This document shows, piece by piece, positions 7,641 through 17,669 of a stretch of DNA of 23,331 nt. A program made the position numbers and the translations under genes. Each line of letters starts with the position of its first letter. Positions within the stretch are counted from its first letter, which is position 1. This DNA comes from a virus: positions 1 to 23,331 of IMG/VR virus record IMGVR_UViG_3300018432_000047; one strand, written 5' to 3'. The notes under the pieces are model-generated. The model did not search any database. It saw only the letters and a list, made by a program, of their open reading frames with translations, and was not told where the DNA came from.

Positions 7641-8045
7641 ATGCCGCCCGCCGACCCCGTAGAAACGCCTGTAGCGGCCCAAGACGCCCCCGCCGCTATA
7701 TCCCCCGCCCCAACCCCCGTCCCCGCCCGTGTAGCGGCCCCTGTAGCGCCCCCGTGGCCCGAAATCCGGCATACCCTCCGGTTCCCGATCACGCCGCCCG
7801 GCGGCGAGGTCGTTTCCGAGGTCGTTTGCCGCGAGCCGGATGTTGAGGCGCTTGAGCGGATCGACAACCTCGGGATGGTCGAGGGGCAGCCCCTCAAGGT
7901 CGCGCAGATCAGGGGGATTATCGCCGCCCTCTCGGGCCTGCCGGACGACGTGATCCGCAAGATGCACAAGACGGATTTCGCCGGGTTGACGGAGAAGGTC
8001 GTCCCTTTGTTGGAACTGTCGGCGGGCGGGGGAAAGCCACATTAG
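7641..8045 (+). CDS. E: Tail assembly chaperone (gpE/Mu gp41-like), zero-frame product
   Basis: 134 residues. The first 40 residues are low-complexity Pro/Ala (APAAISPAPTPVPARVAAPV). The rest follows the tail assembly chaperone pattern: IRHTLRFPITPPGGEVVSEV, then VCREPDVEALERID and a helical C-terminus (QIRGIIAALSGLPDDVIRKM). Such proteins bind the tape measure and recruit tube subunits. The gene sits between tube and tape measure, exactly where P2 has E/E'. A slippery heptamer GGGAAAG lies three codons before the stop, so a longer product is expected as well. Binding site: GAAGGA before the ATG. Confidence is high from context and moderate from sequence alone. Confidence 0.82.
   Translation: MPPADPVETPVAAQDAPAAISPAPTPVPARVAAPVAPPWPEIRHTLRFPITPPGGEVVSEVVCREPDVEALERIDNLGMVEGQPLKVAQIRGIIAALSGLPDDVIRKMHKTDFAGLTEKVVPLLELSAGGGKPH
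8030..8036 (+). promoter_or_regulatory. Programmed -1 ribosomal frameshift site GGGAAAG
   Basis: In the zero frame the bases read G-GGA-AAG, that is X-XXY-YYZ, identical to the known lambda G/GT slippery heptamer. Slipping by -1 gives GGG-AAA and enters the frame that stays open to 8209. The following 50 bases are very GC-rich and contain CGCGC and GCGCG segments that could pair as a stimulator. Confidence 0.82.
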
Positions 8046-8209
8046 GCGCGCTCCTCGCGTGGGCGGCATCGCGCGGCGGGCTTGATCGCGTCGTCGCCGA
8101 AACCTCGGCGGGGACTGCAACCCCGTTCCCCCAAGTCCGAAAAACCCGTATCACGCTGTTGATGCGGATGCACAAGGAAGCGCTTCGGCTCCTCGCCCGC
8201 GCTCGATAG
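8036..8209 (+). CDS. Frameshift extension of the tail assembly chaperone (E'/GT-like)
   Basis: This segment is in the -1 frame relative to the chaperone and has no suitable start codon of its own near its 5' end. It adds 57 residues after K132, giving a fusion of about 189 residues. The added part begins ATLGALLAWAASRGGLD and ends with the basic helix RITLLMRMHKEALRLLARAR. The stop at 8207-8209 is only 7 bases before the tape-measure ATG. In lambda and P2 the minor frameshifted protein contacts the tape measure, and this piece is likely to do the same. No strong sequence match to P2 E' is seen. Confidence 0.72.
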   Translation, partial: ATLGALLAWAASRGGLDRVVAETSAGTATPFPQVRKTRITLLMRMHKEALRLLARAR

Positions 8210-12435: not shown

Positions 12436-13527
12436 ATGCGCGCCGTCTACGAGGTCACGGTCGGCGGGCAGAACATCACGGCGACCCTCAACCCGATCCT
12501 TTTGCGGCTTAGCGTCAGCGATCGCGCCGGGCAGGCGAGCGACAGCGCCTCGATTGAGATCGATGACACGAACGGCGCGGTAATCCTCCCGCCGCCGGGC
12601 AAGCCGGTGATCATCAAGCTCGGGTGGGAAGGCTCGGGCGTCGGCGTCGTGTTCGAGGGCGTCGTTGACGAGGTTCGCGCGAGCGGCGGCCGCAGCGGCG
12701 GCCGGACGCTCTCGATCTCGGCAAAGGGCATGGATACCCGCGAGAAGGCCAAGCAGGGCCAGCGGCGGCACTTTGACGACACGATGATCGGGGACGCGCT
12801 CAAGAAGGCCGGCAAGGCTGCCGGGATATCCGTAACGGTCGATAGCGAACTCGCCTCGATCATGCGGCCCTACATCGCGCTCGATGATGAGAGCTTCGTC
12901 GCGTTCGGCGAGCGGATCGCGCGCGAGGTTGGCGGCACCTTCAAGATCGTTGACAAGAAGGCGGTCCTCGCGAAGCGCAACGCCGGCAAGAGCGGGGGCG
13001 GCGCGTCGCTGCCGACCGTCCGCGCCGTGTGGGGCGAGAACCTTCACGACTACGATATTTCGCCCACGCTCGGCCGACCGGTCGAGAAAGAAACGCTAAG
13101 CCGGTGGTTCGATCCCAAAGCGGCGAAGTGGGAGCTTGAGAGGGCTGACACGGAAACCGAGGGCGGGATCACTACCAAGCCCGCGCGCTTCTCCGAGCCG
13201 GACAAGAAGCGCGCCAAGGAACAATCAACCTCCGACGCCGCCGAGAGCGACCGCAAGAGCGGCGAGGGGAGCGTTACGATCGAGGGCAATATCGGCGCGC
13301 AGCCCGAGGGGCTGTGCATCGTCAGCGGTTGCCGGTCCGGCGTCGATGGGTCCTATCGGATCGAGGGCGTCAACCACGAGCTATCGCGCGGCGGCTTTAC
13401 GACGAGCCTAGAGCTTCGCCAGCCGAAGGGCACCGCCGGCAAGGACACGCGCAAGGTCAAGAGCGGCCCCGGCGTCGATAGCGGGACCGACGACTTCGCG
13501 CTGCCGAGCGATCCCAACCTCGGCTAG
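12436..13527 (+). CDS. D: Baseplate hub protein D (P2 gpD, Phage_GPD family)
   Basis: 363 residues; P2 D is 387. Hub-protein features run in order: YEVTVGGQNITATLNPILLR, LSVSDRAGQASDSASIEIDD, a beta domain with KPVIIKLGWEGSGVGVVFEG, and the helical part DDTMIGDALKKAGKAAGISV. A second beta domain contains HDYDISPTLGRPVEKETLSR. The C-terminal part contains GCRSGVDGSYRIEGVNHEL followed by FTTSLELRQ, as in other members. It corresponds to the gp27-like ring at the tip of the tail tube. The traditional name late control D reflects P2 genetics, not a proven regulatory role here. It ends the conserved P2 tail order. Confidence 0.93.
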   Translation: MRAVYEVTVGGQNITATLNPILLRLSVSDRAGQASDSASIEIDDTNGAVILPPPGKPVIIKLGWEGSGVGVVFEGVVDEVRASGGRSGGRTLSISAKGMDTREKAKQGQRRHFDDTMIGDALKKAGKAAGISVTVDSELASIMRPYIALDDESFVAFGERIAREVGGTFKIVDKKAVLAKRNAGKSGGGASLPTVRAVWGENLHDYDISPTLGRPVEKETLSRWFDPKAAKWELERADTETEGGITTKPARFSEPDKKRAKEQSTSDAAESDRKSGEGSVTIEGNIGAQPEGLCIVSGCRSGVDGSYRIEGVNHELSRGGFTTSLELRQPKGTAGKDTRKVKSGPGVDSGTDDFALPSDPNLG

Positions 13528-13550: not shown

Positions 13551-14597
13551 ATGGCTACCGACGAAACGCTTGCTCTAGCCGCCTCGCGCGTAGCGGGGGA
13601 CCTTCTCTCGGAAATCAACTCGCGGATCATAGAGTATCGCGCGATCCGCGCAGCCGTCGCGGAAGGGCGCGGCGATGTCGTCGCGCTAGCCGCGCAGGCC
13701 GCCGCGATTAGGGTTGAGATCGTAGAGCGGCAGGCCGCGATCGAGGCCGTAATCGCCGGCAATATCCCCGAGCACGAGTGGAGCGGCAAGAGCCTCCGGC
13801 TCAAGAACGCGGATGGGGAGTGGGGCGATTTTGTCAACCTTGCCGGCGCCGATGGCGAGGACGGCGCCGATGGGGCGCCGGGGGCTGACGGCGCGCCGGG
13901 GACTGACGGCGCGCCGGGAGCCGATGGGGCTGACGGCGAGGACGGCGCGGACGGCGTACCGGGAGCCGATGGCGCACCGGGAGCCGATGGGGCCGATGGC
14001 GCACCGGGAGTAGACGGAGCCGATGGGGCCGATGGGGCCGATGGGGCTCCCGGCTTTGACTTCGGCTGGCCGGCCGGCACCTACAAATCGAGCATCGTGA
14101 CGCACTCGGGGTCGTCCACGACGATTTCCACGTCCGCTCTAGAGACGGCGGTGCCGTTCTTCGTCCCAAGACAAACGACGATCGTAGCAATGGCCTTCGC
14201 GCTGGTGACCCAGCAGGCCGGCGCCGAATGCAGGCTTGGGCTCTACGCGGACAACAACGGCGTTCCCGATGCGCTAGTTGTGGATGCGGGGATTATCAAC
14301 CTTTCGAGCGGCACCGGCACGGTTAAGGAGACGGCGCCCTTTTCTCAGGTGCTTGCGGCGGGCTGGTATTGGACCGTCTGCCAGATGAAAAATGTTGCGA
14401 CGCAGGTGACGACTATTAGGAACGGCGGCACGCTTCCGGTGATCTCGCCTACTACGGCGATAATGCTGGCGACATCAGGAGCGCGCTACCTATCGCGTTC
14501 AATTACCTACGGATCGGCGTTGCTCGGCACGGCTTCTCCTTTGCTGGCGCCTTCGGCCGGGGCCGATGCGCCGATCATTTACCTAAAGGCGGCGTAG
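13551..14597 (+). CDS. Collagen-like tail fibre protein
   Basis: 348 residues, with AAAAAGGA before the ATG. Residues 1-80 are helical and probably trimerise or dock. Residues 99-170 are 24 uninterrupted Gly-X-Y triplets, mostly GAD, GAP and GED. The C-terminal 170 residues form a beta-rich head (ALETAVPFFVPRQTTIVAMA, AGAECRLGLYADNNGVPDAL, and FSQVLAAGWYWTVCQMKN), which resembles head domains of other phage collagen-like fibres. It lies just after D, before the lysis genes. The role as an extra receptor-binding or appendage fibre is inferred. The Y position is usually D rather than P, so stability would depend on charge rather than hydroxyproline. Confidence 0.82.
   Translation: MATDETLALAASRVAGDLLSEINSRIIEYRAIRAAVAEGRGDVVALAAQAAAIRVEIVERQAAIEAVIAGNIPEHEWSGKSLRLKNADGEWGDFVNLAGADGEDGADGAPGADGAPGTDGAPGADGADGEDGADGVPGADGAPGADGADGAPGVDGADGADGADGAPGFDFGWPAGTYKSSIVTHSGSSTTISTSALETAVPFFVPRQTTIVAMAFALVTQQAGAECRLGLYADNNGVPDALVVDAGIINLSSGTGTVKETAPFSQVLAAGWYWTVCQMKNVATQVTTIRNGGTLPVISPTTAIMLATSGARYLSRSITYGSALLGTASPLLAPSAGADAPIIYLKAA
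13845..14060 (+). repeat. Collagen-type Gly-X-Y coding repeat
   Basis: Seventy-two residues of Gly-X-Y, encoded by near-identical units of nine bases such as GCGCCGGGA with GCCGATGGG. The DNA similarity favours slippage or unequal recombination, so repeat number may vary between relatives. Confidence 0.9.
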
Positions 14598-14992: not shown

Positions 14993-15020
14993 AAGGCCCG
15001 CCCCTCGGCGGGCCTTTTCT
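14993..15020 (+). terminator. Rho-independent terminator after the structural block
   Basis: AAGGCCCGCC (14993-15002) pairs with GGCGGGCCTT (15007-15016) around CCTC, followed by TTCTTTT. It lies between the secreted-protein gene and the lysin gene and separates the tail/fibre transcript from the lysis genes. Confidence 0.85.
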
Positions 15021-15065
15021 TTTCCCGCAACCTCAACCCCGCCCGATGGGCGGAAAGGAGCCGCC

Positions 15066-15590
15066 ATGCCTAAGCGCCTTCCCGATACCGCCGTTCTCGC
15101 GACCGCCCGAAAGTATCTCGGGCAGAAAGAGATCAAGGGGCCGCATCACAACCCGCACGTCCTCAAGTGGTGGAAGTCGATCGGCGCCCCGTTCAAGGAC
15201 GACGAGACGCCGTGGTGCGGCGCGTTCGTCGGCGGCGTTCTCGCCGAGGTCGGGATCAAGCCGGTCGCCAGCGGCGCCTCTGCGCGCGCGTGGCTCAAGC
15301 TGCCCGTGAAGATCGATAAGCCTGCGGTCGGCTGCGTCGTCGTATTCTGGCGTGGCTCCAAGAACGGCGCCTCGGGGCACGTCGGGTTCGTCGTCGGCAA
15401 GGATCAGAAGGGCAACCTGATGGTCCTCGGCGGCAACCAGTCCGACGCAATCAATATCAAGCCGTTCGCAATGAGCGGGCCGAACGATCGCGTCCTCGGC
15501 TATCGCTGGCCGGGCTTTCATCCCTACCCCGAGCGGTTCGATCTGCCGATCGTTACGAGCGACGGCAAGCTCTCGACCAACGAGGCGTAA
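15066..15590 (+). CDS. Endolysin-type peptidase (TIGR02594, CHAP/NlpC-like)
   Basis: 174 residues with a strong GGAAAGGAG binding site. The fold pattern is that of TIGR02594 cysteine peptidases: the N-terminal helix ATARKYLGQKEIKGP, the catalytic segment DETPWCGAFVGGVLAEVG with Cys51, ASGHVGFVVGKDQKGN with His105, and VLGGNQSDAIN where Asn124 or Asp127 would complete the triad. There is no signal peptide, so release through a holin is expected. It would cut peptide bonds of peptidoglycan in the cell wall. It opens the lysis block directly after a terminator. A role in host lysis is inferred; a virion-associated lysin is less likely because of this position. Confidence 0.85.
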   Translation: MPKRLPDTAVLATARKYLGQKEIKGPHHNPHVLKWWKSIGAPFKDDETPWCGAFVGGVLAEVGIKPVASGASARAWLKLPVKIDKPAVGCVVVFWRGSKNGASGHVGFVVGKDQKGNLMVLGGNQSDAINIKPFAMSGPNDRVLGYRWPGFHPYPERFDLPIVTSDGKLSTNEA

Positions 15591-15633
15591 GCGCCTCGCC
15601 CCCCACAACCCTCGCATCACAGGAGAACCCCCG

Positions 15634-16284
15634 ATGCGTATTCTCAAGTTCTCGGCCGCCGCCCTCTTTCTGATCTACGCGGCCGGCTTCGCTCTGTTCG
15701 CAAGCCCGGCCGGCGCGCAGCCCGCGCCCGCCGATCCCGTCGTCGTCACCAACCCGGCAGGCGACACGACGACCGTCACGACTACGCCGGCGGGCGACGA
15801 TACGACGGTAATCAATACGCCTGCCGATCAGCCGACGACGGTCGAGACGGGCGACAATACGACCGTCGTTCTCCCCGTGGGCTCGTGGGTCGAACAGTTC
15901 ACCGCTGCGTTCCGCGACCTTGCGATTACGGCGCTGGGGCTTGTCCTGCTGTGGGCTTCTAGGCTCTTGCCCGAAGGCATTCGCCAGTACATCAATGCGG
16001 AGCGCATCAAAGCGGCCGAGCAGCTTCTTGGTAAGGCGGTCGATGCAGGGTTCAACGCCGTGAAGGGCGCGACCAAGGGCAAGGTGGTCGAGATCAACGT
16101 CGGCTCGTCGCTGGTAGCGGCGGGCGCTCAGTACGCAGTCGATAACGGGCCGGCGGCTCTCATCAAGTGGCTAGGGGGACCGGAAGGCGTCAAGGAAAAG
16201 GTTGCGGCCCGCCTTGATCTAGGGGCCGATCTCACCACTAAGGCCGTGCTGGCAGGAGCCCCGCCAGTCGTGGGAAAAAGGTAA
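15634..16284 (+). CDS. Exported membrane protein of the lysis block, possible LLH-type holin
   Basis: 216 residues. A signal peptide is likely (hydrophobic 7-23, then SPAGA before Q29). Residues 40-72 are three Thr-rich 11-residue repeats (NPAGDTTTVTT, TPAGDDTTVIN, TPADQPTTVET). A membrane helix covers 93-112 (FRDLAITALGLVLLWASRLL). The C-terminal 100 residues are amphipathic (EQLLGKAVDAGFNAVKG, VAAGAQYAVDNGPAALIKWL). One membrane segment plus this helical tail recalls LLH/holin superfamily 6 proteins, but the long Thr-rich part is unusual. Binding site: CAGGAGAA. The zero frame stops directly after a slippery sequence, and a -1 shift would add 25 basic residues. Confidence 0.65.
   Translation: MRILKFSAAALFLIYAAGFALFASPAGAQPAPADPVVVTNPAGDTTTVTTTPAGDDTTVINTPADQPTTVETGDNTTVVLPVGSWVEQFTAAFRDLAITALGLVLLWASRLLPEGIRQYINAERIKAAEQLLGKAVDAGFNAVKGATKGKVVEINVGSSLVAAGAQYAVDNGPAALIKWLGGPEGVKEKVAARLDLGADLTTKAVLAGAPPVVGKR
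16272..16278 (+). promoter_or_regulatory. Possible -1 frameshift site GGGAAAA
   Basis: In the zero frame the gene ends GTG-GGA-AAA-AGG-TAA. The bases G-GGA-AAA fit X-XXY-YYZ, and a -1 shift gives GGG-AAA and bypasses the stop two codons later. The new frame is open to 16355. Alternatively the run of five A bases marks an indel mutation or a sequencing error. Confidence 0.45.
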
Positions 16285-16355
16285 GCCGGCGACCCGTTCG
16301 TGATTGGATCGTCGGCAAGGTCATAGACCGCGCGCTCAAGAGGTTCGGAAGTTGA
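16278..16355 (+). CDS. Possible frameshift extension of the exported lysis-block membrane protein
   Basis: This -1 frame segment encodes 25 residues including VRDWIVGKVIDRALKRFG, a basic amphipathic helix, and then a TGA. There is no ATG, GTG or TTG in frame within it, so it can be made only by frameshifting from the 15634 gene (total about 240 residues). Codon choice (ATC, GTC, GGC, AAG, GCG, CTC) matches the neighbouring genes, which supports real coding. It may be a former C-terminus detached by an indel. Confidence 0.42.
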   Translation, partial: KVSRRPVRDWIVGKVIDRALKRFGS

Positions 16356-16419
16356 ATAGGCCGGGGGGCCGCGCTGCCGCACAGTGCAGCCCTCTCGCCA
16401 TCAAAAAGGACCTTTAGCC

Positions 16420-16704
16420 GTGGAAGCGTTTTGGACCCAGATCGTAACTTTTCTCATCCAAGGCGGCGGAGGTTTCGGGGTAGCGGCGGCCGCCGAGGGA
16501 CTTATCATCTGGCGGCTGTTCGATCTCCTGATGAAGAGCCACGACGCACGGCTCGCGGATAAGGACGCGGCGACCAAGGCGGCGGAGGCCACGACGAAAG
16601 CGGCGGCAGCGCTTGCGGATGAACTGCGTCGGGGGATGACGGAGAGAGCCGCTGAACTAGAGCGACTAACCTCGTTGCTCCAAAAGCAGAGGGGTAGGCC
16701 ATGA
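16420..16704 (+). CDS. Single-TM protein with coiled-coil tail (holin- or spanin-like)
   Basis: The GTG at 16420 is preferred because AAAAAGGA (16404-16410 region) precedes it; an upstream GTG at 16384 lacks such a site. The product is 94 residues. Residues 1-35 hold one membrane segment (FWTQIVTFLIQGGGGFGVAA through EGLIIWRLFDLLM). The rest is a charged heptad-like helix from HDARLADKDAATKAAEATTK to LERLTSLLQKQRG. This topology fits an inner-membrane spanin subunit or a class of small phage holins, and both choices are inferred from the lysis-block position. It overlaps the next gene by four bases (ATGA). Confidence 0.62.
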   Translation: MEAFWTQIVTFLIQGGGGFGVAAAAEGLIIWRLFDLLMKSHDARLADKDAATKAAEATTKAAAALADELRRGMTERAAELERLTSLLQKQRGRP

Positions 16705-16928
16705 GTGTAAGGACTGTCCTGATGGTGCTATTTTTTGGCCCTCCGAAGGCAGAGCTTCTTTCGGCGAAAGCGCCGCCCGAGGTTACGGCGGAGGGGATGC
16801 GCGCGACCATTCGTCCGGCGCAGAGCCGCCTTCAAAAAGCGCACGTCGGGTTTACCGATGCAGTCGCGGGCGTCGTTGCCGAGAACGAAAAACTGAGGAA
16901 CCGCACCGATGCCTCGCCGTATCATTAA
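16701..16928 (+). CDS. Small protein of the lysis block, unknown
   Basis: 75 residues. The start ATG overlaps the stop of the previous gene (ATGA), and AGAGGGG lies upstream. A short hydrophobic start (VRTVLMVLFFGPP) is too brief for a confident membrane helix and has no lipobox cysteine, so it is not an Rz1-type spanin. The remainder is helical (SRLQKAHVGFTDAVAGVVAE). It overlaps the next gene by 20 bases. Tight coupling to membrane genes suggests a regulatory or antiholin-like role, but nothing in the sequence proves it. Confidence 0.55.
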   Translation: MSVRTVLMVLFFGPPKAELLSAKAPPEVTAEGMRATIRPAQSRLQKAHVGFTDAVAGVVAENEKLRNRTDASPYH

Positions 16929-17424
16929 AAGCGTCCGTATCCGGTGGGCGCTCGCGATCATCGCCGCCTTTTGGGCGACCACGTTTTTTGTGCCAACGCG
17001 CGTCCTAGCGCTGACCCTTACCCTAACCCTCGCGGCGCTTTCGTTCGGCGTCATCGTCAAATATGGGAGGCAGGTCATCGTCTCGGTATTCGAGGATGAC
17101 CTCGGGCCGGTTTCGCAACTTGCGACCGGCATCCTGATCGGATTTACCGGCCTGCTGATCGGGCTGCTTTGGGCGATCGCCTCGCGGGCTGTTCCGGGTG
17201 GCGACTGGATGCTGTCCTCGCCGATGGTCCCGTTCTATCTCTTGCTCTACAACCTCGCTGCCGCCCTGCATATTACGGCGCGGCGCACGGGTTACGGTAA
17301 GGTCCCGCCGGGCGATTGGGCAATGCTGGCGTTCGCGATTGTCGGGGGCCTCGCGCTCGCGGCTATCATGGTTGAACTAGAGATCGTCGGCATCGTCCGG
17401 CCTCCTCCCCCGTCGTCACCCTAA
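16909..17424 (+). CDS. Multi-pass membrane protein ending the rightward lysis block
   Basis: 171 residues. Five probable membrane helices are near 12-28, 32-51, 71-93, 105-124 and 137-163, for example LATGILIGFTGLLIGLLWAI and MLAFAIVGGLALAAIMVELE. A basic N-terminus (MPRRIIKSVRIR) suggests the N-terminus is cytoplasmic. A FEDD loop lies between helices 2 and 3. The C-terminus ends in RPPPPSSP. GAGGAA precedes the ATG. It overlaps the previous gene by 20 bases and the opposite-strand small ORF by 4 bases. It could be a holin, a lysis regulator or a superinfection-exclusion protein; the family is not recognised. Confidence 0.68.
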   Translation: MPRRIIKSVRIRWALAIIAAFWATTFFVPTRVLALTLTLTLAALSFGVIVKYGRQVIVSVFEDDLGPVSQLATGILIGFTGLLIGLLWAIASRAVPGGDWMLSSPMVPFYLLLYNLAAALHITARRTGYGKVPPGDWAMLAFAIVGGLALAAIMVELEIVGIVRPPPPSSP

Positions 17425-17669
17425 CTCAGCGGCTCGCGCTCCTCATCCTTGCTCGGCGGCGGGACGGGTTGAGCGCGGCCCCTCGTCGCTTGGTTCGCCC
17501 GGCGGCGAGGGGCATCTTCCTCCTGACGGTCCGGTTTCCCCCAATGGGCCGGACCTACCTGCCCCGGTGCTTCGGCACCGGGGCCTTTTGTCGTTTCTAG
17601 GGCCTCGCGTTGCCAGCGCGATATCTCGATCAGCATCGCCTCGGCGACCTCATCGGGCGCGAGCCGCAC
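17421..17669 (-). CDS. Small hydrophilic ORF after the lipoprotein gene
   Basis: 82 residues from a GTG that follows the lipoprotein stop by 5 bases, with AAAGG close upstream. The first 27 residues look like genuine protein (RLAPDEVAEAMLIEISRWQR). The rest is low-complexity and proline/arginine-rich (PDRQEEDAPRRRANQATRG), and the segment that gives KGPGAEAP is the reverse of a strong rightward terminator hairpin. Its end overlaps the convergent membrane-protein gene by 4 bases. It is either a small real gene with a disordered tail or an accidental ORF. Confidence 0.45.
   Translation of the reverse strand: MRLAPDEVAEAMLIEISRWQREALETTKGPGAEAPGQVGPAHWGKPDRQEEDAPRRRANQATRGRAQPVPPPSKDEEREPLS
17561..17598 (+). 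terminator. TTCG-loop terminator closing the lysis block
   Basis: GCCCCGGTGC (17561-17570) and GCACCGGGGC (17575-17584) pair perfectly around TTCG, followed by CTTTTGTCGTTT. A weaker hairpin, GGTCCGG (17528-17534) with CCGGACC (17549-17555), lies just before it. It would stop rightward transcription before it collides with the leftward operon. Confidence 0.88.

Follow-up and report, generated by a model that had tools for sequence, protein, structure and literature searches.

The gene at positions 15634–16284 (plus strand) of a virus record of 23,331 bases, the whole of which is referred to below as the window, ends in the codons GTG GGA AAA AGG TAA. This raises the question of whether every ribosome terminates at this stop or whether some slip into the −1 frame and produce a second C-terminus. 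A preliminary description of the sequence had offered two explanations for the open frame beyond the stop, namely −1 frameshifting, or an indel in the A5 run by which a longer protein was truncated. In our analysis, a weak programmed −1 site that would yield a minor extended isoform ranks first, with a probability of about 0.42, and the site is best treated as a testable candidate, not as an established frameshift.

Gene context and homologues

The zero-frame gene encodes a protein of 216 aa with an N-terminal hydrophobic, signal-like segment, a Thr/Asp-rich linker, and long helices. The structure model likewise consists of long helices (mean pLDDT 74.6). Pfam and PHROG searches gave no family above threshold, and neither the model nor a BFVD search, with zero matches at E 0.001, led to an informative match. 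The gene adjoins an endolysin-like gene with a CHAP domain (15066–15590; Pfam CHAP), the top PHROG match of which is 'baseplate hub subunit and tail lysozyme'. It is by this position only that the gene has been labeled part of a lysis block and can be considered a candidate for a role in lysis timing. The window also carries genes of tail and baseplate type, together with genes for proteins of 94, 75, and 171 aa, the last of which is hydrophobic. A collagen-like repeat (GADGAPGADG...) occurs in the gene at 13551–14597, between a gpD-like gene (12436–13527) and the endolysin-like gene.

The stop codon is followed by a G+C-rich intergenic stretch of 135 nt, reaching from the TAA at 16282 to the GTG at 16420. 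This GTG, with AAGGA upstream, starts the 94-aa gene (16420–16704, plus strand), which comprises a hydrophobic segment and a predicted coil and is i-spanin-like by its layout only; a search with it yielded zero confirmed relatives.

Homologues of the 216-aa protein were collected by tblastn and profile searches, and 65 other homologous loci were compared, while a single-protein scan of genome contigs gave zero matches. The loci include the Microcystis phages Mwe-JY25 and Mwe-JY07, Methylobacterium plasmids, 18 IMG/VR loci, and 20 genome loci, mostly from Methylobacterium and other Hyphomicrobiales, plus additional genomes. The family is one of alphaproteobacterial phages and prophages. Their identities range from approximately 20 to 47%, the best values being found for L022 and L040. 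As these searches returned no relatives above 47%, conservation of the signal could be assessed at long distance only. Close relatives sharing the gene block were not found via the endolysin, the 171-aa hydrophobic gene, the gpD-like gene, the 94-aa gene, or a profile of the small open reading frames (ORFs) at L002 and L041, which are described below.

A slippery heptamer with two flanking elements

Signals for −1 frameshifting in bacteria have three known parts, a slippery heptamer, an upstream Shine–Dalgarno (SD)-like element, and a downstream structure, as for example in dnaX and IS elements. At the end of the gene studied here, the heptamer GGGAAAA (16272–16278, plus strand) is read in the zero frame as G_GGA_AAA (X_XXY_YYZ), one codon 5′ of the stop, just as the preliminary description had it. 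Two further elements had escaped that description. The SD-like sequence AGGAG (16254–16258, plus strand) lies 13 nt 5′ of the heptamer and could stimulate −1 slippage. Downstream, a hairpin with an 8-bp outer and a 3-bp inner stem is predicted at 16285–16316 (plus strand). It starts 6 nt 3′ of the heptamer, within the 5–9 nt expected for a downstream structure, and the zero-frame TAA (16282–16284, plus strand) falls inside this spacer. The predicted hairpin has a free energy of −18.4 kcal/mol (z −2.45); an equally stable fold arose in 4 of 200 shuffles, and among random 37-nt windows drawn from the contig 2.5% reached this stability. An Rfam search of 15000–17500 gave zero matches.

To judge how often such elements coincide, in-frame heptamers of the XXX-AAA/TTT type were surveyed in phage loci with crude gene calling (longest ORFs), which makes all rates from this survey rough. 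They are rare, with 136 cases in approximately 144,000 codons. Among these 136, a hairpin of this kind accompanied 2.9% and a strict SD-like 5-mer at such a distance 3.7%, and only the heptamer at 16272 combined a strict SD-like 5-mer with a hairpin at least as stable as −18 kcal/mol. This joint rarity speaks against a mere coincidence of purine run, hairpin, and open frame. In favor of coincidence, 14 in-frame heptamers were located no more than 15 codons from a stop among the 548 gene ends of the surveyed loci. The genes of the window contain three in-frame heptamers, CCCTTTG at 8003, GGGAAAG at 8030, and GGGAAAA at 16272, and the form G_GGA_AAR is in frame at the latter two only.

The reading frame beyond the stop

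The −1 frame is open from 16242 up to a TGA at 16353–16355. A ribosome slipping at the heptamer would read ...GK-KVSRRPVRDWIVGKVIDRALKRFGS and add 25 residues (16278–16355 with the TGA, plus strand), the length that had been described before. The absence of an ATG, GTG, or TTG start from this open frame was likewise borne out; the sole near-starts are ATC at 16308 and ATA at 16323. At 16281–16283 (plus strand), the window has GTA, whereas in many homologues this position is occupied by a start codon, GTG or ATG, that overlaps the stop (RTGA). A 21-codon ORF with a TTG start (16352–16417) overlaps the TGA of the tail (TTGA) and ends just 5′ of the GTG at 16420; it is probably due to chance.

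Properties of the tail itself contribute little. Open −1 runs as long as this one are commonplace, arising in 42% of shuffles. The codon use that had been called native-looking did not exceed composition when compared with shuffles of the tail's own bases (p 0.12). Ranked among true coding segments, the codon score of the tail falls at the 2nd percentile; among off-frame segments, it falls at approximately the 98th to 99th. The basic amphipathic helix of VRDWIVGKVIDRALKRFG, put forward earlier as a sign of function, has a helical moment within composition as well (p 0.27). Since both values lie within composition, neither codon use nor helix speaks clearly for the tail. We also considered an i-spanin remnant in the tail, based on a DW motif that the tail shares with L024, L059, and L102, but did not keep it (p 0.02 against shuffles, 0.10 against random segments).

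Comparison across the family

The zero-frame ends of the homologues lie at a comparable position, soon after the conserved ...RLDLD... helix, and have short, variable tails. None of the 65 loci has the tail fused in frame, and an A/T-type frameshift heptamer within the last 20 codons was likewise found in 0 of 65, with GGGCCCG present in one. Therefore, judged from the sequences, the short form is the family's normal form. For the same reason the idea of an indel in the A5 run, be it a sequencing or assembly error or a recent frameshift mutation, fails. It could draw on the homopolymer and on the 25 codons by which the −1 frame continues, but homologues at approximately 20 to 47% identity terminate close to the zero-frame stop or at it, none is longer there with similar residues, and the run consists of only five A. 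We consider this reading very improbable. Frameshifting, too, is without comparative support, heptamer and tail both being absent from all 65 loci. In addition, several homologues (L031, L058, L072) have comparable or stronger hairpins 3′ of the stop without a heptamer.

In part of the family, the stop itself overlaps the start of a further ORF. In approximately 20 of the 65 loci (21 counted, a few possibly spurious), the same −1 frame opens at the stop, by RTGA or TGATG, into an ORF at least 30 codons long. At L002 (3363–3460) and L041 (3390–3490), this is a hydrophobic ORF of 31 and 33 aa (MSRGALLWIAA... and MSRRAPGWIAL...). It lies between the membrane-protein gene and an i-spanin-like ORF, and starts overlap on either side of it. 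In an alignment anchored at the overlap, the tail (V)SRRPVRDWIVGKVI... showed a weak similarity to these small ORFs, with p 0.005 versus L002 and 0.03 versus L041 against a background of random open segments starting with AGC, in a test made after the resemblance had been seen. However, the small ORFs are hydrophobic and the tail of the window is charged, and the sequence GTAAGC is also found 3′ of L019, a homologue without a small ORF. A different gene junction, at L087 (2549–2561), has GGGAAAAGGGTGAGC with an in-frame heptamer one codon 5′ of the stop, and there a GTG start in the −1 frame overlaps the stop and opens an ORF with a hydrophobic segment and a coil-like stretch. As this junction illustrates, a purine run of this type can stand ahead of a −1-frame GTG start that overlaps the stop.

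Weighing the explanations

From the motif, its spacing, and the predicted hairpin we infer slippage, an isoform, and any role that it may have, in the following way. The 216-aa zero-frame protein would be the main and ancestral product. A ribosome moving past GGA-AAA may be held up both by the hairpin that begins 6 nt downstream and by pairing of the upstream AGGAG with 16S rRNA, and occasional re-pairing on GGG-AAA would carry it past the TAA out of frame and into the 25-residue basic tail. This would give the membrane-associated protein, whose gene stands next to that of the endolysin, a minor isoform with an extended C-terminus. A low level of slippage would be expected, since early work found G_GG.A_AA.A to be inefficient in E. 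coli (Sharma et al. 2014, PMC4066793). Overall, a frameshift site is favored by the local anatomy, in which AGGAG and a strong hairpin flank the heptamer, the latter across a 6-nt spacer. The comparison with homologues lends it no support, but these are also too distant to refute it. For the two C-termini suggested in the preliminary description, the local signal is thus better than had been described, while conservation of heptamer or tail did not appear.

A coincidence, in which the gene simply ends at the TAA at 16282 and the GGGAAAA run, the hairpin, and the open −1 frame meet by chance in a G+C-rich intergenic stretch, is the next reading in rank, possible though somewhat doubtful. It would account for the lack of conservation, and it agrees with the shared end point of the homologues, the ordinary length and codon score of the open run, the post-stop hairpins elsewhere in the family, and the heptamers near other gene ends. 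It has to face the joint rarity of a heptamer with a canonically spaced hairpin and an SD-like element, as well as the resemblance between the tail and the small ORF of L002 in the anchored alignment. That resemblance would be explained if the −1 frame held a small gene of its own, or the relic of one, once coupled to the zero-frame gene through an overlapping start that is now GTA and either very poorly read or dead, in which case the purine run GGGAAAAAGG would be its old ribosome-binding region. The overlapping ORFs of the relatives, the alignments with L002 and L041, and the junction at L087 all fit this proposal, which explains both the place and the weak similarity, but without a start codon: GTA stands at 16281, and then only ATC and ATA follow. 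The difference in hydrophobicity, the GTAAGC after L019, the insignificant resemblance to an i-spanin start region, and the post hoc nature of the similarity test also count against it, and we regard it as rather unlikely on its own. Frameshifting and such a relic are not exclusive. A combination, in which two forms arise by −1 frameshifting and the basic tail of the minor form is a former coupled small gene with a lost start, so that a coupled pair turned into a frameshift fusion, appears less probable still.

Programmed −1 frameshifting remains the reading we prefer. A working site would be an example of −1 frameshifting in a phage gene other than the well-known tail chaperones, and in a family in which relatives rely on overlapping stop/start coupling at this very position. 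How evolution passes between coupling and frameshifting could then be tested directly. A small, partial literature search turned up no title or abstract on a frameshift-extended membrane protein of a lysis block.

Comparison with known systems

Overlapping stop/start coupling (ATGA, GTGA, TGATG) is a feature of phage gene blocks, and it is to these that the homologues with an ORF at the same stop are alike. Unlike coupled phage genes, the window has GTA at this point, and its −1 frame is without any canonical start.

The −1 signals of IS1/IS3-family elements and of IS911 are laid out with an upstream SD and a downstream structure. As at 16272, a slippery heptamer is combined with stimulatory elements, but in these elements the shift leads to a fusion with a large downstream domain, whereas the extension considered here is short and without relatives. 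The motif G_GG.A_AA.A is itself among those used by IS1/IS3-family elements (Sharma et al. 2014, PMC4066793).

A parallel to a phage system is found within the window. The heptamer G_GGA_AAG at 8030 is in frame near the stop of the gene at 7641–8045, which lies directly 5′ of a 1083-aa tape-measure-type gene, in the position of a tail-assembly chaperone; the −1 extension stays open as far as 8209, and the heptamer is followed by a hairpin with −22 kcal/mol (45-nt window). By position and motif, 7641–8209 is a putative frameshift arrangement of the type seen in the lambda tail-assembly chaperone gpG/gpGT. The site at 16272 differs from lambda gpG/gpGT in that it belongs to a different gene, after an endolysin-like gene, adds 25 residues only, is without a conserved second domain, and is not conserved in homologues. 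Like lambda gpG/gpGT (G_GGA_AAG), it has a G_GGA_AAR heptamer close to where the gene ends, and the longer product would be encoded in the −1 frame.
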